DNA from: Fragilariopsis cylindrus CCMP1102
Lineage: Eukaryota; Bacillariophyta; Bacillariophyceae; Bacillariales; Bacillariaceae
Length of the DNA: 64,000 nucleotides
Reading direction: 5' to 3'
NCBI GenBank assembly: GCA_900095095.1
Contig: FMBT01000374.1
Location: forward strand, 1-64,000
The translations under genes and the position numbers were made by a program. Shown here piece after piece: positions 30,777 through 59,320 of the stretch. The notes below the pieces were generated by a model. That model did not search any database. It was given only the letters and a program-made list of their open reading frames with translations, and was not told the DNA's origin. Each line of letters begins with the position of its first letter. Within the stretch, counting starts at the first letter, position 1.

Positions 30777-30778
30777 GG

Positions 30779-30894
30779 AGAACAACACCTGGGATTCCAA
30801 CGTGGTCCCCCACCGTAGTACTAACCAGGCCCGAACATGCTTAACTTCGCTGAGCAGACGGGAAGCGGTGCTGTCATGTTGGTATGGTCGTTCT
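30779..30894 (-). rRNA. 5S ribosomal RNA
   Basis: Read on the minus strand the sequence has the universal 5S features. The 5' strand AGAACGACCATACC and the 3' strand GGTGTTGTTCT form an 8-bp helix I with one G-U pair. AGCACCGCTTCCCGTCTGCTC and GAAGTTAAGC (written in part) are the loop B/C region. AGTACTACGGTGGGGGACC covers the loop E and C-box promoter region. The length is about 116 bases, close to the usual 118-120. A T-run follows immediately. This is a solitary copy, 225 bases from a divergently oriented tRNA gene, with no large rRNA gene in the window. A 5S-derived retrocopy cannot be excluded, but the intact helix I and terminator favour a working gene. Confidence 0.9.
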
Positions 30895-31118
30895 CTCTAC
30901 TCTATCGAAAAATTAGCTATTTAAACTATGTGCACGTCAACGCGCGACAAACGCAATAAATTTACACATCATACCGCCGATCACAGTAAGGTTGATACAC
31001 GACATCGCTCACAACATTTATTACAACGACTGACACATCACAACACAAAGAAAGAAAGCAAAGAAAAAAAGCAGACCTTTATAATCGCCACGATCTTACT
31101 ACCCTTGTAACAGCAGTT

Positions 31119-31191
31119 ACCCGGTTAGCTCGGTTGGAAGAGCGCTCGACTTTTAATCGTGTGGTCATGGGTTCAATCCCCATATCGGGTG
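31119..31191 (+). tRNA. tRNA-Lys (anticodon UUU)
   Basis: A cloverleaf can be drawn: acceptor ACCCGGT with ATCGGGT (one G-U pair) plus discriminator G; D-arm GCTC..GAGC; anticodon loop CTTTTAA with TTT; T-arm ATGGG-TTCAATC-CCCAT. A-box (TAGCTCGGTTGG) and B-box (GGTTCAATCC) are present, and there is no intron. The anticodon stem CTCGA/TCGTG has one T-T mismatch at 28:42, which is unusual but tolerated. Translating the opposite strand yields the well-known artefact peptide MGIEPMTTRLKVERSSNRANR (part), a hallmark of tRNA genes miscalled as proteins. Confidence 0.9.
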
Positions 31192-39688: not shown

Positions 39689-42600
39689 ATGAGACATTGC
39701 CATGATGAAGACGACAGAAAGCAATCGCGTCAACGCCATGATGATGATGACGACGACGACGATGATGATGATAACGTCGATGATGACGACGACGATGATG
39801 ATGACAGCGACGATGATGATGATCATCATCTACTACAAGAAAATCAACTGCGTTGTTTTGGAGTTGAAAGGAGTACTTCGTTGTTGTTACTTCTATCGGT
39901 GTTATTAACATTTATAGTTTTTCGATCAGTTTCATATGTTACCAGTATCCCTCGTACCTGTATCAATACCGATAATATTCCTTGTTATAGTGAAGAAGAT
40001 GCTCGTCCCATTATAATTGGTACCACCGACACAAATACTGACAGCAGCAGCAGCAACAGCAACAGCAACATCAACAACGATGAGAATTTGTCCATTACCA
40101 CCACCACAGAAGAATATATCTTGTTCGTCAAGGATAGCTACCAAGAGTTGTTACAGAAAAAAGTCTACGACTTTACCTACAAGAACAAAAGTCCCAACAT
40201 GGACGAAGAGTTAGAACTTGAACTAAAGGAGTCAAAGGGATTGAAAGCAACAGGTGGCATAGTCTATGAAATGACAAACGAGAAGAGTGCGAAATACAAT
40301 TCGAAAAGCAACAAAAGCGAAGGCATAGTTTACGAAATGACAAACGAGAAAAGTGCGAAATACAATTCGAAAAGCAACAAAAGCGAAAAAAGACCTGAGA
40401 AGGATTCAAAGAGTACAAATAACTACTACTACGACCAAAAAAGTTCAGGGAAGGGTTCGTACAGCAAGAAAAGTGAAAAGAGTCAAGGAAAGAGCAAAGA
40501 AGAGAAAAAGAGTAAAGACAACAATAATCAATCTCCCATTAGCTTACCAAGATTTTCCCCAACTCGTAATCCTACAGCAAATCCGACTAATATACCAACA
40601 GTAAAATCAATAGGTAGCATAGTCGTCGAAACAAACATCAATTCGAAGGGCAACAAAAGCGAAAAAAAATCAGAAAAGGATTTGAAGAGTAAATCGAAAG
40701 GGACGAACAACAATTACTATGAACAGACACGTTCAGAGAAGGATTCGAAGAGCGAAAAGAAAAGTAAAGGGAAAGGAGGTGAGATAAATAAAGGGAAAGG
40801 TAATGGCAAAGGAGACGAAAAAAAGAGTAAATCGAAAGGGACGAACAACAATTCGAAAAGTAACAAAAGCGAAAAAAGTTCAGAGAAGGATTCGAAAAGT
40901 ACCAACAACAATTACTATGAACAAAAAAGTTCAGGAAAAGATTCAAAGAGTAACAAAAGCGAGAAGAGTCAAAAGAAAGAGAGTCCAAATCGTAATCCTA
41001 CAGCAAATCCGACTAATATACCAACATCCTCTCAGATGACGTCATCGCCTTCCAGATTTTCATCAACCATACTCAGTCTTTCAAGGAAGAGTCAGAAGAA
41101 GAACAACAAAAATAACAACAAAAGCAATAAAAACAACAAGAAATCAAAAAAATCTAATAAGTCAGAATCGAAAAAATCAAAAAAGAATCGTCCAAATATG
41201 AGGAAAACAAAACGTCCAAAGACAAAACGTCCAACTAATTCACCTACACCATTTGATACATTAGGATTCGTAGATATTACTGGATTCGCTGGTCCACCGG
41301 TCCGAACTTTACCAAGAAAGAATTTAAAAAAAGCTCTTATGAAGGTAACAAAAACATGTTTACGTATTGATGATTGTTCAATACCATCCAATCCCTATAA
41401 AGATTGTGTTGTGAAAATCATTATACCAAGATCAACAAAGTGTAGTAATGTATATCGCAGCGATGAGGTTATTCCTATAGATGTAACAACATGTTATGAA
41501 GTTACATTTAGAATTACTAGTAATGGTGGATCATGCAATGTAGATGGTGCAAGTAAAATAGTTATGGGAGATATAGTATCTGGTTTATATACAAATGATC
41601 TTGCCTTTGTTGTTATAATGAGTCTATCATCTGGATCGCCAAGCAGCTTGCCCAGTTTGGAACCAACTTTAACGCCGAGTGCTGTACCCAGTTCCGTCCC
41701 AAGTCTTCATCGGAGCGTTGCCCCTAGTGTGGACCCAAGCACAGCACCAAGTGATGATCCGAGTGCTTTGCCTAGCTCCACTCCTAGTCTCGAACCGAGC
41801 GATGTCCCTAGCCTTGCACCAAGTACGGATCCTAGTGCGGACCCAAGTGCAGCACCGACTGATGCTCCTAGTATTGATTTGAAGTCAAGGATACCGCCAA
41901 CCTCTGTTCCTAGTGTTGACCCAAGCAAAGCACCGAGTGCCGATCCTAGTGCGTTTCCTAGCTTTGTTCCTAGTCTCGATCCGAGTGCTGTCCCTAGTGC
42001 TGTGCCAAGTGCTATACCGAGCACAGAACCAAGTTTATCTCCAAGTGCTGTCCCTAGTTTGGAGCCAAGCGAGTCACCGAGTAGCTTGCCCAGTTTGGAA
42101 CCAAGTTCATCACCGAGTGCTGGACCCAGTTTATTCCCAAGTCGTTTTCCGAGTGGGGAGCCAAGTATGTTACCAAGCTCGGAGCCCAGCTCACTTCCGA
42201 GTCTTTTTCCCAGTTCTGAACCTACTTCATTTCCAAGTCTTTTACCCAGTTCGATACCTAGCTCATTTCCAAGTGGCACTCCCAGTCTCAAACCGAGTAC
42301 AGAACCAAGTTTGTTTCCAAGCGCTGTCCCTAGTTTGGAGCCAAGCGAGTCACCGAGTGATGTGCCTAGTTTTGTGCCAAGTTCTGCACCAAGTGCTGGT
42401 CCAAGTTCCATTCCAAGTCTTACACCAAGTGGTGCACCCAGCTCTACTCCTAGTTTGGATCCTAGCTCTTCTCCTAGTTTGGATCCGAGTGGTTCACCAA
42501 GTTCAGCACCGAGTTCAATCCCGAGTGATGTGCCTAGTTTTTTGCCAAGTTCTGCACCAAGTGCTGGTCCAAGTTCCATTCCAAGTCTTACACCAAGTAG

Positions 42601-45600
42601 TGCACCAAGCTCTATTCCTAGTTTGGATCCTAGCTCTTCTCCTAGTTCAGTACCAAGTTCAATCCCGAGTGATGTGCCTAGTTTTTTGCCAAGTTCTGCA
42701 CCAAGTGCTGGTCCAAGTTCCATTCCAAGTCTTACACCAAGTAGTGCACCAAGCTCTATTCCTACTTTGGATCCTAGCTCTTCTCCTAGTTCAGTACCAA
42801 GTTCAATCCCGAGTGATGTGCCTAGTTTTTTGCCAAGTTCTGCACCAAGTGCTGGTCCAAGTTCCATTCCAAGTCTTACACCAAGTAGTGCACCAAGCTC
42901 TATTCCTACTTTGGATCCTAGCTCTTCTCCTAGTTCAGTACCAAGTTCAATCCCGAGTGATGTGCCTAGTTTTTTGCCAAGTTCTGCACCAAGTGCTGGT
43001 CCAAGTTCCATTCCAAGTCTTACACCAAGTAGTGCACCCAGCTCTTCTCCTAGTTTGGATCCGAGTGGCGCACCAAGTTTAGCACCTAGTTCGGAACCCA
43101 GTTCCCTTCCGAGTCTTTTGCCAAGTTCTGCACCAAGTGCTGGTCCAAGTTCCATTCCAAGTCTTACACCAAGTGGTGCACCCAGCTCTTCTCCTAGTTT
43201 GGATCCGAGTGGCGCACCAAGTTCAGCACCTAGTTCGGAACCCAGTTCCCTTCCGAGTCTTTTGCCAAGTTCTGCACCAAGTGCTAATCCGAGTTCCATT
43301 CCGAGTGCTATTCCTAGTTTGATTCCAAGTGCTGATCCTAGTTTGGAACCAAGCTCCATGCCCAGTTCCGTTCCGAGCGCTATACCAAGCTTAAGTAATG
43401 CACCCACCGCAAGTGCTGCACCTAGTTCTAATCCTACTGCAACTGATGACCCAACCGTCAGTCTTGCACCCAGTTCCTTTCCAAGTATTTCGCCGAGTGC
43501 TGCTCCTAGTTTTACCCCAAGTTTTGTCCCAAGTGGTGTTCCTAGCTTTGTTCCAAGTTTAATCCCCAGTTTGGAACCTAGTTTCTTGCCCAGTGCTGTA
43601 CCAAGTTCTCAGCCAAGTCTTTCACCAAGCACCATTCCTAGCTCTGCGCCTAGTCTCAATCCAAGTGGCGCCCCAAGTTTAAAACCGAGTTCATTGCCCA
43701 GTGCTGTTCCAAGTGGTGCGCCTAGCTCTACTCCTAGTCATGCTCCTAGTCTTGATCCTAGTGGTGCACCGAGTTCCATTCCAAGCACAATCCCAAGTCT
43801 TTTGCCCAGTTTGGAACCGAGCTCACTACCAAGTCTTCTACCCAGTTCAGATCCAAGTGCTCACCCAAGTTCTGTACCGAGCGCTATACCAAGTGCGGAG
43901 CCCAGTATGATTCCCAGCATTATTCCTAGTTCAACTCCTAGTTCAATTCCGAGTAAGGCACCAAGTAGCTTGCCCAGTTTGGAACCAAGTTTATTGCCAA
44001 GTGCTGCACCCAGTTCCATCCCAAGTCTTGATCCGAGCGCTGCCCCTAGCCTTGCTCCCAGTGAGGTTCCTAGTTCGGATCCTAGTGCGGATCCAAGCAC
44101 AGCACCGAGTGTTGATCCGAGTGCTTCTCCTAGCTCTGCTCCTAGTCTGGATCCGAGCAGCGCACCGAGTTCTGTCCCAAGTGCTGGCCCAAGTACTGCT
44201 CCTAGTTCCAGACCGAGCTTCGGGCCCAGTCTTTCACCAAGTTCTCTTCCGAGTTCTGTTCCAAGTCTTGACCCAAGTGCAGGTCCCAGTCTTTCACCAA
44301 GTTCTGCTCCTAGTCTTTCACCTAGCTCTGATCCGAGTGGTGCACCAAGTTCTTTCCCTAGTTTGGAACCCAGCTCCATTCCAAGTTCCATTCCAAGTGC
44401 CATTCCGAGTGCTAATCCAAGCGGGGAGCCGAGTAATTTTCCCAGCTCTCTTCCAAGTGGAGTTCCAAGTGGTGGTCCTAGTTCTGATCCGAGCGGTCTT
44501 CCAAGTGTAGTTCCAAGTGGTGGTCCTAGTTCTGATCCGAGCGGTCTTCCAAGTGGTGGTCCTAGTTCTGCTCCAAGCCTTGACCCCAGTTCTGCTCCAA
44601 GTCTTGACCCAAGCGCAGGTCCCAGTCTTTCACCAAGTAGCTTGCCCAGTTTGGAACCAAGTTTATTGCCAAGTGCTGCACCCAGTTCCATCCCAAGTCT
44701 TGATCCGAGCGCTGCCCCTAGCCTTGCTCCCAGTGAGGTTCCTAGTTCGGATCCTAGTGCGGATCCAAGCACAGCACCGAGTGTTGATCCGAGTGCTTCT
44801 CCTAGCTCTGCTCCTAGTCTGGATCCGAGCGGCGCACCGAGTTCTGTCCCAAGTGCTGGCCCAAGTACTGCTCCTAGTTCCAGACCGAGCTTCGGGCCCA
44901 GTCTTTCACCAAGTTCTCTTCCGAGTTCTGTTCCAAGTCTTGACCCAAGTGCAGGTCCCAGTCTTTCACCAAGTTCTGCTCCTAGTCTTTCACCTAGCTC
45001 TGATCCGAGTGGTGCACCAAGTTCTTTCCCTAGTCTGGAACCCAGCTCAATGCCTAGCTCCACTCCAAGTCTTGAACCGAGTGCTGCCCCTAGTTCTGAG
45101 CCAAGTACTGTCCCAAGTAATTCTCCCAGTTCCAGTCCTAGCTTAATGCCTAGTCTTTCACCAAGTTCTAGTCCTAGTTCCATCCCAAGTGCAGAGCCAA
45201 GTGCATCTCCAAGCGCTACTCCTAGTTCAGCTCCTAGTTCAATTCCGAGTAAAGCACCGAGTAGCTTGCCTAGTTTAGAACCAAGTTCTATGCCAAGTGC
45301 CGGACCAAGTTCTATCCCAAGTTCTACTCCGAGTGGTGCACCAAGTTCTCTCCCTAGTCTGGAACCTAGCTCAATGCCTAGCTCCACTCCAAGTCTTGAA
45401 CCGAGTGCTACCCCTAGTTCTGCGCCAAGTACTGTCCCAAGTAATTCTCCCAGTTCCAGTCCTAGCTTAATGCCTAGTCTTTCACCAAGTTCTAGTCCTA
45501 GTTCCATCCCAAGTGCAGAGCCAAGTGCATCTCCAAGCGCTACTCCTAGTTCAGCTCCTAGTTCAATTCCGAGTAAAGCACCGAGTAGCTTGCCTAGTTT

Positions 45601-46408
45601 AGAACCAAGTTCTATGCCAAGTGCCGGACCAAGTTCTATCCCAAGTTCTACTCCGAGTGGTGCACCAAGTTCTCTCCCTAGTCTGGAACCTAGCTCAATG
45701 CCTAGCTCCACTCCAAGTCTTGAACCGAGTGCTACCCCTAGTTCTGCGCCAAGTACTGTCCCAAGTAATTCTCCCAGTTCCAGTCCTAGCTTAATGCCTA
45801 GTCTTTCACCAAGTTCTAGTCCTAGTCTCGAACCTAGTTCACAGCCCAGCTTACTTCCAAGTGATGGACCCAGTTCAGAACCAAGTTCTCTGCCAAGTGG
45901 TGTCCCGACTTGGGGACCCCGGGACCCGACAGCAACAATTACAGTGACCGAAACGAACATCGACGAATCGACATCGGTATCTACAGCACAATCTCTCATA
46001 ACAGCGACCGCAACTGCTACCGCAACAGTGCCCTCTGCCTCATCAGTGAATGAAGTAGCAACAGCAACAGCGATAGGGACAGCGAATGTACGATCCGTCT
46101 CCCTAACAACGACCTCAACAGCAACATCAACAGCGACAGCAACAGCAACAGCAACCGGAAATATTGCCGGAGTAGCGCTCGCCATAGCGATCGCAACAGC
46201 CACATCAACAGCTACCGCAGAAGCGAACTCTTTAGCTTGCGCAACAGCAACCGCAACTGCGACCGCAACAGCGTACGCAAAAGTAAGCTCTGGAAACACC
46301 ACATCACAAACAGTAGGACCAGTGTGCGCATACGGATTCGTATCAGTTACAGCAACAGCTACAATGATTATCGATACCAGTCAGTTACCGGGAGGAAATA
46401 TAAATTAA
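39689..46408 (+). CDS. Giant PSxxPS-repeat protein, probable cell-wall or surface protein
   Basis: 2239 residues in one exon. Order: acidic His/Asp-rich N-terminus (1-60); a signal-anchor membrane segment (~64-84, LLLLLSVLLTFIVF); a Lys/Ser-rich region (~190-520) with SKSNKSEKKSEKDSKS-type clusters and NPTANPTNIPT words, including a direct 22-residue repeat at 40256 and 40322; and a Cys-containing folded domain (~525-645; TCLRIDDCSIPSNPYKDC, CYEVTFRITSNGGSC). Then come ~1420 residues of PSxx units (~650-2072) and an Ala/Thr-rich tail (TATATATATG) ending near PVCAYGFVSVTATATMI. Ser-rich Lys clusters resemble silaffin-type silica-associated proteins, and PSxxPS proteins are frequent at stramenopile surfaces, so a frustule or extracellular-matrix role is a reasonable inference. 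No enzymatic motif is seen. The acidic N-terminus may start at a later ATG. Confidence 0.85.
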   Translation: MRHCHDEDDRKQSRQRHDDDDDDDDDDDNVDDDDDDDDDSDDDDDHHLLQENQLRCFGVERSTSLLLLLSVLLTFIVFRSVSYVTSIPRTCINTDNIPCYSEEDARPIIIGTTDTNTDSSSSNSNSNINNDENLSITTTTEEYILFVKDSYQELLQKKVYDFTYKNKSPNMDEELELELKESKGLKATGGIVYEMTNEKSAKYNSKSNKSEGIVYEMTNEKSAKYNSKSNKSEKRPEKDSKSTNNYYYDQKSSGKGSYSKKSEKSQGKSKEEKKSKDNNNQSPISLPRFSPTRNPTANPTNIPTVKSIGSIVVETNINSKGNKSEKKSEKDLKSKSKGTNNNYYEQTRSEKDSKSEKKSKGKGGEINKGKGNGKGDEKKSKSKGTNNNSKSNKSEKSSEKDSKSTNNNYYEQKSSGKDSKSNKSEKSQKKESPNRNPTANPTNIPTSSQMTSSPSRFSSTILSLSRKSQKKNNKNNNKSNKNNKKSKKSNKSESKKSKKNRPNMRKTKRPKTKRPTNSPTPFDTLGFVDITGFAGPPVRTLPRKNLKKALMKVTKTCLRIDDCSIPSNPYKDCVVKIIIPRSTKCSNVYRSDEVIPIDVTTCYEVTFRITSNGGSCNVDGASKIVMGDIVSGLYTNDLAFVVIMSLSSGSPSSLPSLEPTLTPSAVPSSVPSLHRSVAPSVDPSTAPSDDPSALPSSTPSLEPSDVPSLAPSTDPSADPSAAPTDAPSIDLKSRIPPTSVPSVDPSKAPSADPSAFPSFVPSLDPSAVPSAVPSAIPSTEPSLSPSAVPSLEPSESPSSLPSLEPSSSPSAGPSLFPSRFPSGEPSMLPSSEPSSLPSLFPSSEPTSFPSLLPSSIPSSFPSGTPSLKPSTEPSLFPSAVPSLEPSESPSDVPSFVPSSAPSAGPSSIPSLTPSGAPSSTPSLDPSSSPSLDPSGSPSSAPSSIPSDVPSFLPSSAPSAGPSSIPSLTPSSAPSSIPSLDPSSSPSSVPSSIPSDVPSFLPSSAPSAGPSSIPSLTPSSAPSSIPTLDPSSSPSSVPSSIPSDVPSFLPSSAPSAGPSSIPSLTPSSAPSSIPTLDPSSSPSSVPSSIPSDVPSFLPSSAPSAGPSSIPSLTPSSAPSSSPSLDPSGAPSLAPSSEPSSLPSLLPSSAPSAGPSSIPSLTPSGAPSSSPSLDPSGAPSSAPSSEPSSLPSLLPSSAPSANPSSIPSAIPSLIPSADPSLEPSSMPSSVPSAIPSLSNAPTASAAPSSNPTATDDPTVSLAPSSFPSISPSAAPSFTPSFVPSGVPSFVPSLIPSLEPSFLPSAVPSSQPSLSPSTIPSSAPSLNPSGAPSLKPSSLPSAVPSGAPSSTPSHAPSLDPSGAPSSIPSTIPSLLPSLEPSSLPSLLPSSDPSAHPSSVPSAIPSAEPSMIPSIIPSSTPSSIPSKAPSSLPSLEPSLLPSAAPSSIPSLDPSAAPSLAPSEVPSSDPSADPSTAPSVDPSASPSSAPSLDPSSAPSSVPSAGPSTAPSSRPSFGPSLSPSSLPSSVPSLDPSAGPSLSPSSAPSLSPSSDPSGAPSSFPSLEPSSIPSSIPSAIPSANPSGEPSNFPSSLPSGVPSGGPSSDPSGLPSVVPSGGPSSDPSGLPSGGPSSAPSLDPSSAPSLDPSAGPSLSPSSLPSLEPSLLPSAAPSSIPSLDPSAAPSLAPSEVPSSDPSADPSTAPSVDPSASPSSAPSLDPSGAPSSVPSAGPSTAPSSRPSFGPSLSPSSLPSSVPSLDPSAGPSLSPSSAPSLSPSSDPSGAPSSFPSLEPSSMPSSTPSLEPSAAPSSEPSTVPSNSPSSSPSLMPSLSPSSSPSSIPSAEPSASPSATPSSAPSSIPSKAPSSLPSLEPSSMPSAGPSSIPSSTPSGAPSSLPSLEPSSMPSSTPSLEPSATPSSAPSTVPSNSPSSSPSLMPSLSPSSSPSSIPSAEPSASPSATPSSAPSSIPSKAPSSLPSLEPSSMPSAGPSSIPSSTPSGAPSSLPSLEPSSMPSSTPSLEPSATPSSAPSTVPSNSPSSSPSLMPSLSPSSSPSLEPSSQPSLLPSDGPSSEPSSLPSGVPTWGPRDPTATITVTETNIDESTSVSTAQSLITATATATATVPSASSVNEVATATAIGTANVRSVSLTTTSTATSTATATATATGNIAGVALAIAIATATSTATAEANSLACATATATATATAYAKVSSGNTTSQTVGPVCAYGFVSVTATATMIIDTSQLPGGNIN
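42525..43110 (+). repeat. 144-bp tandem repeat inside the PSxxPS region
   Basis: The word GTGATGTGCCTAG recurs at 42525, 42669, 42813 and 42957, exactly 144 bases apart (12 PSxx units of 12 bases). An earlier diverged copy begins at 42357 (168 bases before). The copies are nearly identical. Confidence 0.92.
43961..45050 (+). repeat. 672-bp spaced duplication inside the PSxxPS region
   Basis: The segment starting CCAAGTAGCTTGCCCAG at 43961 recurs at 44633 (offset 672 = 56 x 12). About 415 bases are almost identical between copies, with single-codon differences such as DPSSAPS versus DPSGAPS. Confidence 0.9.
45061..45830 (+). repeat. 324-bp tandem repeat inside the PSxxPS region
   Basis: CACTCCAAGTCTTGAACCGA recurs at 45061, 45385 and 45709, exactly 324 bases apart (27 x 12). 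The third copy is cut short where the tail begins. Confidence 0.92.
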
Positions 46409-55586: not shown

Positions 55587-57541
55587 ATGAGCATTATGGT
55601 AGGAGTAGTGCCGCTGTTGTTTTTAATATTGGCTTGTTATATCGCTACAAGTAGCACTACTTCCGTTGTGCTAGTCGTCGATGCCTGGATATTAAAATCA
55701 TCATCACCGATGACTCATCCTGTGTCGTCAATGAAAACAACAACAGCAACAGGCTACTACCAACAACATCGTACCTATTCTTCTTCTTCTTCTTCTTCTT
55801 TTTCTTCCTCACGATTGAATTCAGCGGTTGAAGATAGTGTTGACGTTGATAACGACGTTGATAACGTATCACTTCCAGATTTTGGTAAAACTACAGTCGA
55901 AGTGGATACGATCAAACTTGTTAAAAAGAGACGTAAGAAAAAAGAAAAGGAAGAAAAGACAGATGATTCACTTTATGATACAACAGATGGTGTTACTACT
56001 GCTAAAGATAATAGTGTGAGTGAGAAGTGGCGACGGACTGATTTAATGGGTACCTCCTTAATTGATCAAACACTGGAGGAATTGTCCAAAGATATTGATT
56101 TCCAAACGACACAAAAACGAATTAAAAAAGTTGGATTAAGTGGTATATCCAAAGAAGAACGTATCCAACGACGTCGTGCCTTAGATAAATTAAATGTCAA
56201 ACCATTTAATGAATTTATTGAACAAGAAATGAATATGAAAAATACAAAGAAGAAAGACGAAGTTTTGGATACTATAATGGATGATGCAGAAGAAACTACG
56301 ACTACGACTACTACTACTGCGACAACAGCAGTAGATGCGCCATTGCCATTTCAATTAAAAAGAAAACAATCGAAAGTATTACAAATTAATATTGGTTTGT
56401 ATTGCAATCAAGCCTGTGGACATTGTCATGTCGAATCGTCACCATTACGGAAAACGGAAATGATGACGACTGCCACGACGGCACGGTGTTTGCAATTATT
56501 AAAAAATTCCCCTTCCATTACGACATTAGATATCACTGGTGGTGCACCAGAATTAAATGATAATTTTCGATATTTGGTCAGTACCGCACGTGCCATCCGA
56601 CCGGATTTAATTATCATTGATCGATGTAATTTAACGGTCTTACAAGAACCCGGTCAACATGATTTAGTAGACTTTTTAAAAGATCATGATGTGACCATCA
56701 TTGCTAGTTTGCCCTGTTATTCTGAAGATAATGTCGATACACAACGTGGGAATGGTGTCTTTGAACGTTCCATCTCGGCATTATTAGCATTAAATGAAGC
56801 AGGGTATGGAAAACAAACAGAACAACATACTACTACCGGTAGTGAGAATGAGAATGAGAATAAAAAATCATTAGTATTAGATTTAGTTTATAATCCATTA
56901 GGGGCATTTTTACCACCACCACAAGAAGACTTACAAATACAATATAAAAAACAATTACAAGATAATTTTGGTATCTTATTTAATTCCTTATATACCATTA
57001 CGAATATGCCCATTAAACGATTTGCGGATTTTTTACATCGACGAGATGAATTAAATGAATATATGATGTTATTAGTAAGAAATTTTAATAGTAATACATT
57101 AAATAATTTAATGTGTTTAGATACAATTAATATTGGTTGGAATGGAAAGGTAAGTTAAAGAGTTTAAAGAGTTTAAAGAGTAAAAAGTTAAAAAAGTAAA
57201 AGCTATCCAAACCGAACATAATACGTTTTATATCTTCGACTTACGTGCTCCTCCCTCCCCTCCCCTCCATCATCTCTGTTTTTTTCTTCTTCTCCGCTCC
57301 GCTCCACTGCATACAATAATAATAATAAAATCAACACAAACAGATATATGATTGTGATTTCAATCAACAATTAGGATATGAAATTGGTGCGGATAAAATA
57401 CATAGTAATGATGGTGATTGTAAAACTGTTTTTGATATCGAATCATTAGATGAATTACTGGATACAAAAATTCGTAATGATAATCATTGCTTTGGTTGTA
57501 CAGCTGGTATGGGTTCCAGTTGACAAGGTGCCACGGCGTAA
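55587..57541 (+). CDS. Radical SAM selenoprotein candidate of the ArsS / rSAM-SeCys family
   Basis: Two exons, 55587-57149 and 57344-57541 (194-base GTAAGT..CAG intron). The radical SAM core has CxxxCxxC at C273, C277 and C280 (GLYCNQACGHCH), binding the [4Fe-4S] cluster that cleaves SAM, then TLDITGGAPELN, IIDRCNLTVL and SLPCYSEDNVDTQRGNGVF. The DUF3641-type C-terminal part has LVLDLVYNPLGAFLPP, CLDTINIGWNGK, IYDCDFNQQLG and NDNHCFGCTAGMGSS. This family continues with Cys or selenocysteine after GSS. Here the codon is TGA (57521-57523) and the frame continues CAA GGT GCC ACG GCG TAA, so the Sec form is GSSUQGATA, 586 residues with Sec at 581; stopping at TGA gives 580. Bacterial ArsS acts in arsenosugar synthesis. 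The N-terminus has a signal peptide and VVDA|W, a permitted variant of the diatom plastid cleavage site. Confidence 0.85.
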
Positions 57542-57565
57542 TGAAACAACGCTCGTGGCTTTACC
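57527..57565 (+). promoter_or_regulatory. Stem-loop directly after the in-frame TGA (Sec redefinition-like element)
   Basis: Pairs: GGT 57527-57529 with ACC 57563-57565; GCCACG 57530-57535 with CGTGGC 57554-57559; GCGT 57536-57539 with ACGC 57549-57552. This makes 13 bp with a one-base and a three-base bulge and a nine-base loop. It starts three bases after the TGA and is GC-rich in an AT-rich area. Stem-loops a few bases after UGA are known to favour Sec insertion in some eukaryotic selenoprotein mRNAs. Confidence 0.6.
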
Positions 57566-57609
57566 TATTACTATACCATACAAATATGCTTATTATGAAA
57601 CGAAAAACA

Positions 57610-57678
57610 AAAGTTTTGAATGACTTTTTAGAAAAAGAAATCTTATTGGTTTTTATTTTGAAAATGAAAAAAAACTTT
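57610..57678 (+). promoter_or_regulatory. Candidate eukaryotic SECIS element in the 3' UTR
   Basis: Helix I pairs AAAGTTTT (57610-57617) with AAAACTTT (57671-57678), 8 bp. A small internal loop (GA / AAA) is followed by the core ATGA (57620-57623) opposite TGA (57665-57667). Helix II pairs 57625-57633 with 57656-57664 (9 bp including T-G and G-T), then an A-A mismatch, then 57635-57639 with 57650-57654. The apical loop begins with A (AAA at 57638-57640). Quartet and A-rich apical positions fit the SECIS plan. The AT-rich composition makes chance pairing a real concern. Confidence 0.45.
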
Positions 57679-57931
57679 GTGATCCAATCCATCCTTACTC
57701 ATACTTCGTCAGTACAGTAACGTTAATACTGTAATAAAATAACTAACTGATGAATGGATGAAGAGGATCGAATCGACGAAGATGCATGATATTCGTATTA
57801 CCAATTCACATAAGACGTGCATGTATACTAATACATACATACATATAGTACATACAACAATATAATAACATACATACATACATACATACATACATACATA
57901 CACACGTACATAGGTCCTACATACATTCATA
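57679..57931. other. 3' flank with a second long hairpin and (CATA)n
   Basis: 57681-57769 can fold as an extended hairpin: GATCC/GGATC, CATCC/GGATG and TTCGTCAGT/ACTGATGAA. Behind it lies a (CATA)n microsatellite. No gene is supported. Confidence 0.5.
57832..57901. repeat. (CATA)n microsatellite
   Basis: Two blocks of CATA/TACA tetramers, interrupted at about 57846-57866. Confidence 0.85.
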
Positions 57932-58447: not shown

Positions 58448-59320
58448 CTATGCATCCGTGGCAACGCACCAGACAGAGCATGGCATAAGAACCGCTTCTC
58501 GTGCTGAATTACGCTTAAATGCAAAAGCGACCCAAACATTATCTGGAAGGTCCGTCCAAACGGTATGTGGTTTAAGAAGTTTAGAGTCGCCCTTTGTAGA
58601 TACGAAAAGTTTTGCATTACGTTCTACCATATCAATCTCAATTGTTACAACTGCTCCCTCATCCTCACTGCCTTCATAATATACAGGGGTCATATATGGT
58701 AATTTGTTCCAGTCACTTCCTGCATTACGTCGAACATGCTGTTTCTCTTCATCGGATGATACTAATCCGGCTAAGGTGTACCCACATCCCTTGATCCACA
58801 TAGATTGTGTCGTTTTTCCTTTGTCAATAGCTCCTAGAGTATGAACTCCAGGCATTGCAGATAAAGAATGGGCGGATTCGATCGATTCACAAATTACTGA
58901 TTTATTTGTTGGGAATTTGAAAACGGCACTAGTATCCTCTTGATGCCATATATTTTGCCATAGCTCCATACCATCATCGTATAATGGCTGTTCCTTCTCA
59001 TTAATCGTAGCTATTGCAACATCGCGTTGATGTTCGACTTGTTCTACACGACGTTCGGCTTCATGTAAACGCCTTGAAAGGTCCCGCCGTTCTACTCGTA
59101 ATGGCTGTTCCTTCTCATTAATCGTAGCTATTGCAACATCGCGTTGATGTTCGACTTGTTCTACACGACGTTCGGCTTCATGTAAACGCCTTGAAAGGTC
59201 CCGCCGTTCTACTTGTAATGTTCGTAATGTTCGTAACTCCAAAGGAGAATGTTTTACCGAGAAATTAGAAGGAAGACGACGGTCGTCCAGGCGACGATTA
59301 AAGCGGGCAAGGATTCCCAT
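58448..59320 (-). CDS. Coiled-coil protein with SPRY-like domain
   Basis: 290 residues, single exon, ATG at 59320. The basic N-terminus (MGILARFNRRLDDRRLPSNF) is followed by a coiled coil (~33-112) made of two near-identical 39-residue units (VERRDLSRRLHEAERRVEQV, EHQRDVAIATINEKEQPL). The C-terminal half (~125-285) looks like a SPRY/B30.2-type beta sandwich: VHTLGAIDKGKTTQSMWIKG, AGLVSSDEEKQHVRRNAGSD, VTIEIDMVERNAKLFVSTKG and LPDNVWVAFAFKRNSAREAV. SPRY domains bind peptides or proteins, so an adaptor role is likely; partners are unknown. The SPRY assignment rests on pattern only. Confidence 0.68.
   Translation of the reverse strand: MGILARFNRRLDDRRLPSNFSVKHSPLELRTLRTLQVERRDLSRRLHEAERRVEQVEHQRDVAIATINEKEQPLRVERRDLSRRLHEAERRVEQVEHQRDVAIATINEKEQPLYDDGMELWQNIWHQEDTSAVFKFPTNKSVICESIESAHSLSAMPGVHTLGAIDKGKTTQSMWIKGCGYTLAGLVSSDEEKQHVRRNAGSDWNKLPYMTPVYYEGSEDEGAVVTIEIDMVERNAKLFVSTKGDSKLLKPHTVWTDLPDNVWVAFAFKRNSAREAVLMPCSVWCVATDA
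58983..59216 (-). repeat. 117-bp exact-phase tandem duplication in the SPRY-like gene
   Basis: 58983-59099 and 59100-59216 differ at only one base as far as I can read (ACTCGT versus ACTTGT at the junction codon). The unit is 39 codons, so the frame is kept. Confidence 0.93.

Follow-up and report, generated by a model that had tools for sequence, protein, structure and literature searches.

Radical SAM enzymes of the ArsS type (TIGR04167) are known, from other members of the family, to adenosylate methylated arsenic in the synthesis of arsenosugars (PMC12159101, PMC8552651). Selenocysteine (Sec) forms of TIGR04167 are known as bacterial predictions; one is listed for AAR34688.1 (PMC9312934), and the family is named among predicted bacterial selenoproteins with the motif GxxU (PMC13188914). 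A survey of algal selenoproteomes reports 42 families and carries FeSoxR (FeS oxidoreductase) among its abbreviations (PMC7539508), and the selenoprotein list of T. pseudonana (PMC2375036) has no such entry. Among the titles and beginnings of abstracts that our literature searches listed, mostly of open papers, none reported a eukaryotic Sec-type ArsS. The eukaryotic form described here looks new, unless it should be identical with FeSoxR.

Gene structure and family membership

The gene under study lies on the forward strand of a 64,000-nucleotide stretch of Fragilariopsis cylindrus DNA, referred to below as the window, and, judging from its sequence, very probably encodes a eukaryotic ArsS/TIGR04167 selenoprotein ending in GSS-U-QGATA. 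Exon 1 (55587-57149) specifies a hydrophobic N-terminus, a low-complexity linker and the radical SAM domain with its cluster motif CNQACGHC; exon 2 (57344-57541) specifies the C-terminal end of the DUF3641 part. The intron between them (57150-57343, GTAAGT...CAAACAG) was deduced from the splice signals and from the continuity of the TIGR04167 match. About 250 residues precede the ArsS domain, and the hydrophobic stretch at their start may be a targeting signal. The 3' end of exon 2 reads ...NDNHCFGCTAGMGSS-TGA-CAA-GGT-GCC-ACG-GCG-TAA, in exact agreement with what the original prediction had stated. Translation, the corresponding column of the homologues, and a second copy of the gene with the same TGA all mark the in-frame TGA at 57521-57523 as the codon for a putative Sec at residue 581, and the true stop codon would then be the TAA at 57539-57541. 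With the TGA read as Sec, the joined product of the two exons comprises 586 residues, the final six of which are missed if the TGA is annotated as a stop.

Elsewhere in the window, a very long ORF of PS-x-x-PS repeats occupies positions 39689-46408 of the forward strand, with long LG-repeat ORFs antisense to it, and at 30777-31191 a 5S rRNA gene on the reverse strand adjoins a tRNA gene on the forward strand.

The predicted membership in the TIGR04167/DUF3641 family is well borne out. When the TGA is entered as Cys, the joined protein scores 393.1 bits against TIGR04167 (cut-off 300) over positions 2-302 of the 303 of the model, and the match extends to residue 584, three residues beyond the TGA and hence through QGA. 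The DUF3641 model (PF12345) is covered over its full length (1-134 of 134) with 170 bits, above its cut-off, as is the match to Radical_SAM (PF04055), whose CX3CX2C motif is present as CNQACGHC. Viral contigs yielded no relative, and a search of solved structures gave no match at an E value of 0.001.

We read 55 bacterial homologues: locus L023, 30 loci supplied by a genome search (395 genomes, of which 121 matched at an E value of 1e-30 or better), 20 genes fetched because this search reported one in-frame TGA in them (20 of the 39 such match rows counted), and four plasmid copies, the remainder of the 52 matching plasmid records (47 from Burkholderia and one from Cupriavidus) being left out of the reading. 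All 55 possess the motif CxxCxAGxG. Two residues after it lies the column that aligns with the TGA, which is occupied by Cys in 35 and by TGA in 20 homologues, a split that is no frequency because the 20 were selected for their TGA. What this selected set does reveal is that the TGA sits in this same column 20 times out of 20. The column is followed by x-G in all 55 homologues, and the window protein has TGA-QG at this place, so chance is a poor explanation of the position of its TGA. Both the predicted Cys/Sec position after GSS and the predicted fit of QGATA to the family tail hold under this comparison, and among the tails of the family QGALS and GGATT resemble QGAT.

Were the TGA an ordinary stop, the protein would end at GSS and QGATA would be a recent relic of a Cys-containing ancestor. 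TGA does end four of the 15 long ORFs of the window (18 such ORFs, less the first exon of ArsS and two repeat ORFs in antisense, taken without a homology check), and it is thus probably an ordinary stop elsewhere. At this locus, such a reading has very little in its favor, since the column holds Cys or TGA in every bacterial homologue, the TGA and the tail are unchanged in two diverged copies, a SECIS-like element and a hairpin follow downstream, and the genome contains other Sec genes (GPX, SelT). A genome-wide reassignment of UGA was likewise considered and rejected in view of the same four ORFs, counted without a homology check, and of the in-frame TGA codons at known Sec positions of GPX and SelT.

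Predicted RNA elements and the second copy of the gene

The published SECISearch definition asks for NTGA, 10-13 nt, AA or CC, 15-39 nt and GA, with energy limits of -12.6 kcal/mol for the whole element and -3.7 for its upper stem (PMC2375036). We scanned with a script written after this pattern, using ViennaRNA energies and some rules of our own. Within 1000 nt after the TAA, a sole candidate emerged, and it passes the definition (NTGA-10-AA-30-GA). This SECIS-like element (57607-57680, forward strand) consists of a helix I, an AUGA/UGA quartet, a helix II and an unpaired AA, and starts, with its core at 57620-57667, 79 nt downstream of the TAA; its upper stem has -6.7 and the whole element -13.2 kcal/mol, with 10 pairs in the lower helix. 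When the 200 nt that follow the TAA were subjected to dinucleotide shuffling, none of 500 sequences reached -12.6 and four of 500 contained any candidate, the corresponding figures for the 1-kb flank being 5/300 and 24/300. Among real 1-kb blocks of the window, pattern and energy limit were found together in 9 of 64 on the forward strand (the ArsS block included) and in 8 of 64 on the reverse strand. The AT content of the element is high, and its folding hardly exceeds that of its shuffled counterparts (z -0.94, 33/200 as good).

A collinear second copy of the gene with the same TGA, QGATA and TAA is present on contig C680 of the same genome. The conservation of QGATA, which the original prediction had proposed to look for in other diatoms, is thus seen within this genome. 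The substitution rate between the two copies is 17% for the 5' flank, 7% for exon 1, 14% for the intron and, within the 3' flank, 5% over the first 200 nt and 12% beyond. Exon 2 carries six substitutions before the TGA and none from the TGA to the TAA (57521-57541). Several small indels break the frame of exon 1 in the C680 copy, the exon 2 of which is intact; they mark this copy as either a broken allele or a haplotig that was insufficiently polished, and the conservation it shows is to be judged with that reserve. Near the gene, an ORF on the reverse strand (58448-59320) contains VERRDLSRRLHEAERRVEQVEHQRDVAIATINEKEQPL twice as an internal direct duplication, of which the C680 copy has a single unit.

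These indels also indicate that the assembly may not be free of errors, and the codon might in reality be TGC or TGT. Such an error is, however, exceedingly improbable: it would have to yield TGA in both copies despite the 7% (exon 1), 14% (intron) and 12% (distal 3' flank) by which they differ, and it would leave the downstream RNA elements without a purpose.

Over the SECIS region (57602-57686), the copies differ by three substitutions and two deleted bases in 83 aligned sites, fewer substitutions than the 12.5% of the intron and distal 3' flank taken together (Fisher p 0.008). One of the changes (57631, G to A) replaces a G-U pair of the upper helix by A-U; another, at 57677, breaks one pair of the lower helix. 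With -6.6 kcal/mol for the upper stem and -12.0 for the whole, the C680 element just misses the limit of -12.6, and its folding relative to shuffles is similar (z -1.05, 28/200 as good). A separate scan of our own design gives one match per copy, the same element in both. The Rfam model SECIS_1 (RF00031) has no match at the ArsS locus up to an E value of 10 and none in the whole genome; it looks insensitive here, because the Sec-GPX and SelT genes of this genome are missed as well. Behind four of these loci, GPX L025, L026 and L027 and SelT L033, the strict scan yielded nothing that passes the energy limit. The SelT candidate is similar in shape to ours and has -10.8, the one of GPX L025 has -9.5, both short of the limit, and L026 and L027 gave no candidate at all. 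With a relaxed scan, the GPX genes gave only doubtful candidates, and that common to L025 and L026 has AC instead of AA. We regard the SECIS as probable, not proven, because its pattern is not rare in the DNA of the window, its energy is modest, Rfam is silent and the other Sec loci fail in the same scan. The original prediction had named the absence of a SECIS as a ground for its refutation, and the outcome was the opposite: one SECIS-like element conforms to the SECISearch definition, although the Rfam SECIS model gives it no score.

The second predicted element is a hairpin at 57526-57566 (forward strand) that overlaps the last codons and the TAA, resembles a Sec-redefinition element and is predicted to fold in both copies. 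Two unpaired bases separate it from the UGA. Its energy of -19.4 kcal/mol (z -4.05) was reached by none of 200 shuffles, and the same holds for the C680 hairpin with -20.3 kcal/mol (z -4.92). In both copies, six core pairs reach a probability of 0.97-1.0 when 130 nt are folded; the arms are identical, and two substitutions and one deletion are confined to the loop. The substitution rate of the hairpin region (2/45 sites, p 0.08) is not significant on its own. Of the 51-nt windows taken every 10 nt on the forward strand, 9 of 6395 fold as well. A slightly lower energy (-20.3) is obtained for the 51-nt stretch that has its first base 32 nt 5' of the UGA. Folding of 130 nt pairs the UGA for the most part in the window copy and to a lesser degree in C680, so that the upstream part of the fold is not firmly kept.

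Sec redefinition elements (SREs) are stable stem-loops that follow a Sec UGA immediately (PMC8704476, PMC4561486). Hairpins also follow the Sec UGA in GPX L025, L026 and L027 (z -3.4, -2.7 and -3.5), where they start 6-7 nt after it. One stem pair of these hairpins changes from A-U to G-C between L025 and L027 through two synonymous changes that compensate each other. SelT L033 (z 1.2) and the GPX loci L031 and L032 (z -0.8 and -0.9) are without such a hairpin, perhaps because putative introns begin there. Among the bacterial homologues, folding just downstream of the column is stronger where the column is TGA (20 genes) than where it is Cys (35 genes; mean z -1.02 vs 0.00, Mann-Whitney p 1.2e-4; z of -2 or below in 3/20 vs 1/35), as a bacterial SECIS would bring about, though the lineages represented in the two sets are different as well. 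A bacterial SECIS was considered as the source of the ArsS hairpin and not adopted, the protein lying outside the main Sec-type bacterial clade.

Such a hairpin might by itself drive readthrough of the UGA with insertion of another amino acid, as has been proposed for hymenopteran SPS1-UGA in a description of hairpin-driven readthrough (PMC4561486), and a hairpin so much stronger than its shuffles (z -4.05 and -4.92) would suit this role. The homologues read, however, have Cys or TGA in this column, a SECIS-like element follows the gene and tRNA-Sec is encoded in the genome, all of which render the insertion of an amino acid other than Sec highly unlikely.

Selenocysteine machinery and the probable function

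Sec decoding at this locus would draw on machinery of which the genome provides clear traces. At 13 places tRNA-Sec scores over its Rfam cut-off, some of these being probably allelic, and ARAGORN reports eight tRNA-Sec genes in the three loci scanned, all with the anticodon TCA. The tRNA-Sec genes stand in tandem arrays on contigs C69, C547, C56, C138 and C678 (L010-L017), with a spacing of 163 bases in L010 and at least two sequence types among them. SepSecS (344.6 bits, with neighboring in-frame pieces) and SelD (187 bits) lie over their cut-offs. Matches to PSTK (27.7 bits) and eEFSec (best 89.4 bits) are all below theirs. The Sec machinery, which the original prediction had named as known from diatoms, is thus present here as far as tRNA-Sec, SepSecS and SelD are concerned, with PSTK and eEFSec short of their cut-offs. 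Sec-type GPX is encoded with NVASQUG in L025, L026 and L027 and with NVACLUG in L031/L032, and Sec-type SelT with CVSUG in L033; some of the GPX and SelT loci are likely alleles of each other. Collectively, the homologue column, the tail, the machinery genes, the second copy and the predicted RNA elements support the central claim of the original prediction that the in-frame TGA is read as Sec.

From what is known of the family, the enzyme would most likely transfer the 5'-deoxyadenosyl group of SAM to methylated arsenic species in the synthesis of arsenosugars. The probable role of its C-terminal Sec, as of the Cys in many relatives, would be to bind or reduce the arsenic substrate or to close the active site. 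A genome search with the ArsM-type methyltransferase model NF008823 (cut-off 263 bits) gave 24 matches, none of them over the cut-off, the best exon match having 110.7 bits. If our reading is correct, the gene would link the arsenic metabolism of a eukaryote, presumably a diatom, with selenium. Should Sec be the working residue at the C-terminus of the enzyme, the production of arsenosugars may depend on the supply of selenium.

Origin and relation to known systems

We calculated a maximum-likelihood tree of 56 rows with a midpoint root, the sampling of which is narrow: genomes of a single bacterial phylum, four plasmid copies and the window protein as the sole eukaryote. Eighteen bacterial Sec forms (GFTU or GFSU) split from the rest with a support of 100/100. 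The window protein joins 12 Cys rows at a fork that is not firm (89/78), and the two bacterial GSTU forms occupy other positions within the Cys half of the tree. Because the window protein stands among Cys-type proteins and apart from the main bacterial Sec clade, a separate gain of Sec in its lineage is the simplest assumption, and the Sec of this ArsS was probably acquired independently of the bacterial Sec forms. The change from Cys to Sec is considered the theoretically more difficult direction (PMC7539508), which makes the ArsS gene a test case. One possible, on balance somewhat doubtful, course of events is that a eukaryotic lineage with a bacterial-type ArsS exchanged Cys for Sec on its own and gained a SECIS in the 3'-UTR together with a hairpin over the last codons and the stop. 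Post-UGA hairpins may under this proposal be a general helper of Sec decoding, since three Sec-GPX loci (two of them perhaps alleles) share them.

In its core, the window protein resembles bacterial TIGR04167/ArsS in the combination of radical SAM and DUF3641 parts and in the succession of CxxCxAGxG, two residues, Cys or Sec, and x-G. Unlike the bacterial genes, it is eukaryotic, is interrupted by an intron, has about 250 residues before the domain and carries predicted recoding signals of the eukaryotic type; compared with the bacterial Sec-type ArsS, its sequence falls with the Cys-type and not with the main Sec-type clade. FeSoxR is likewise an Fe-S enzyme and figures as a selenoprotein on the published algal list (PMC7539508), a comparison made by name and not by sequence or family accession. 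The hairpin, finally, is like the SREs of SELENON, SELENOT and SPS2 a predicted stable stem-loop directly 3' of a Sec UGA (PMC8704476, PMC4561486), a likeness of structure rather than of demonstrated sequence homology, and it differs from those SREs in that it includes the true stop codon of its gene.
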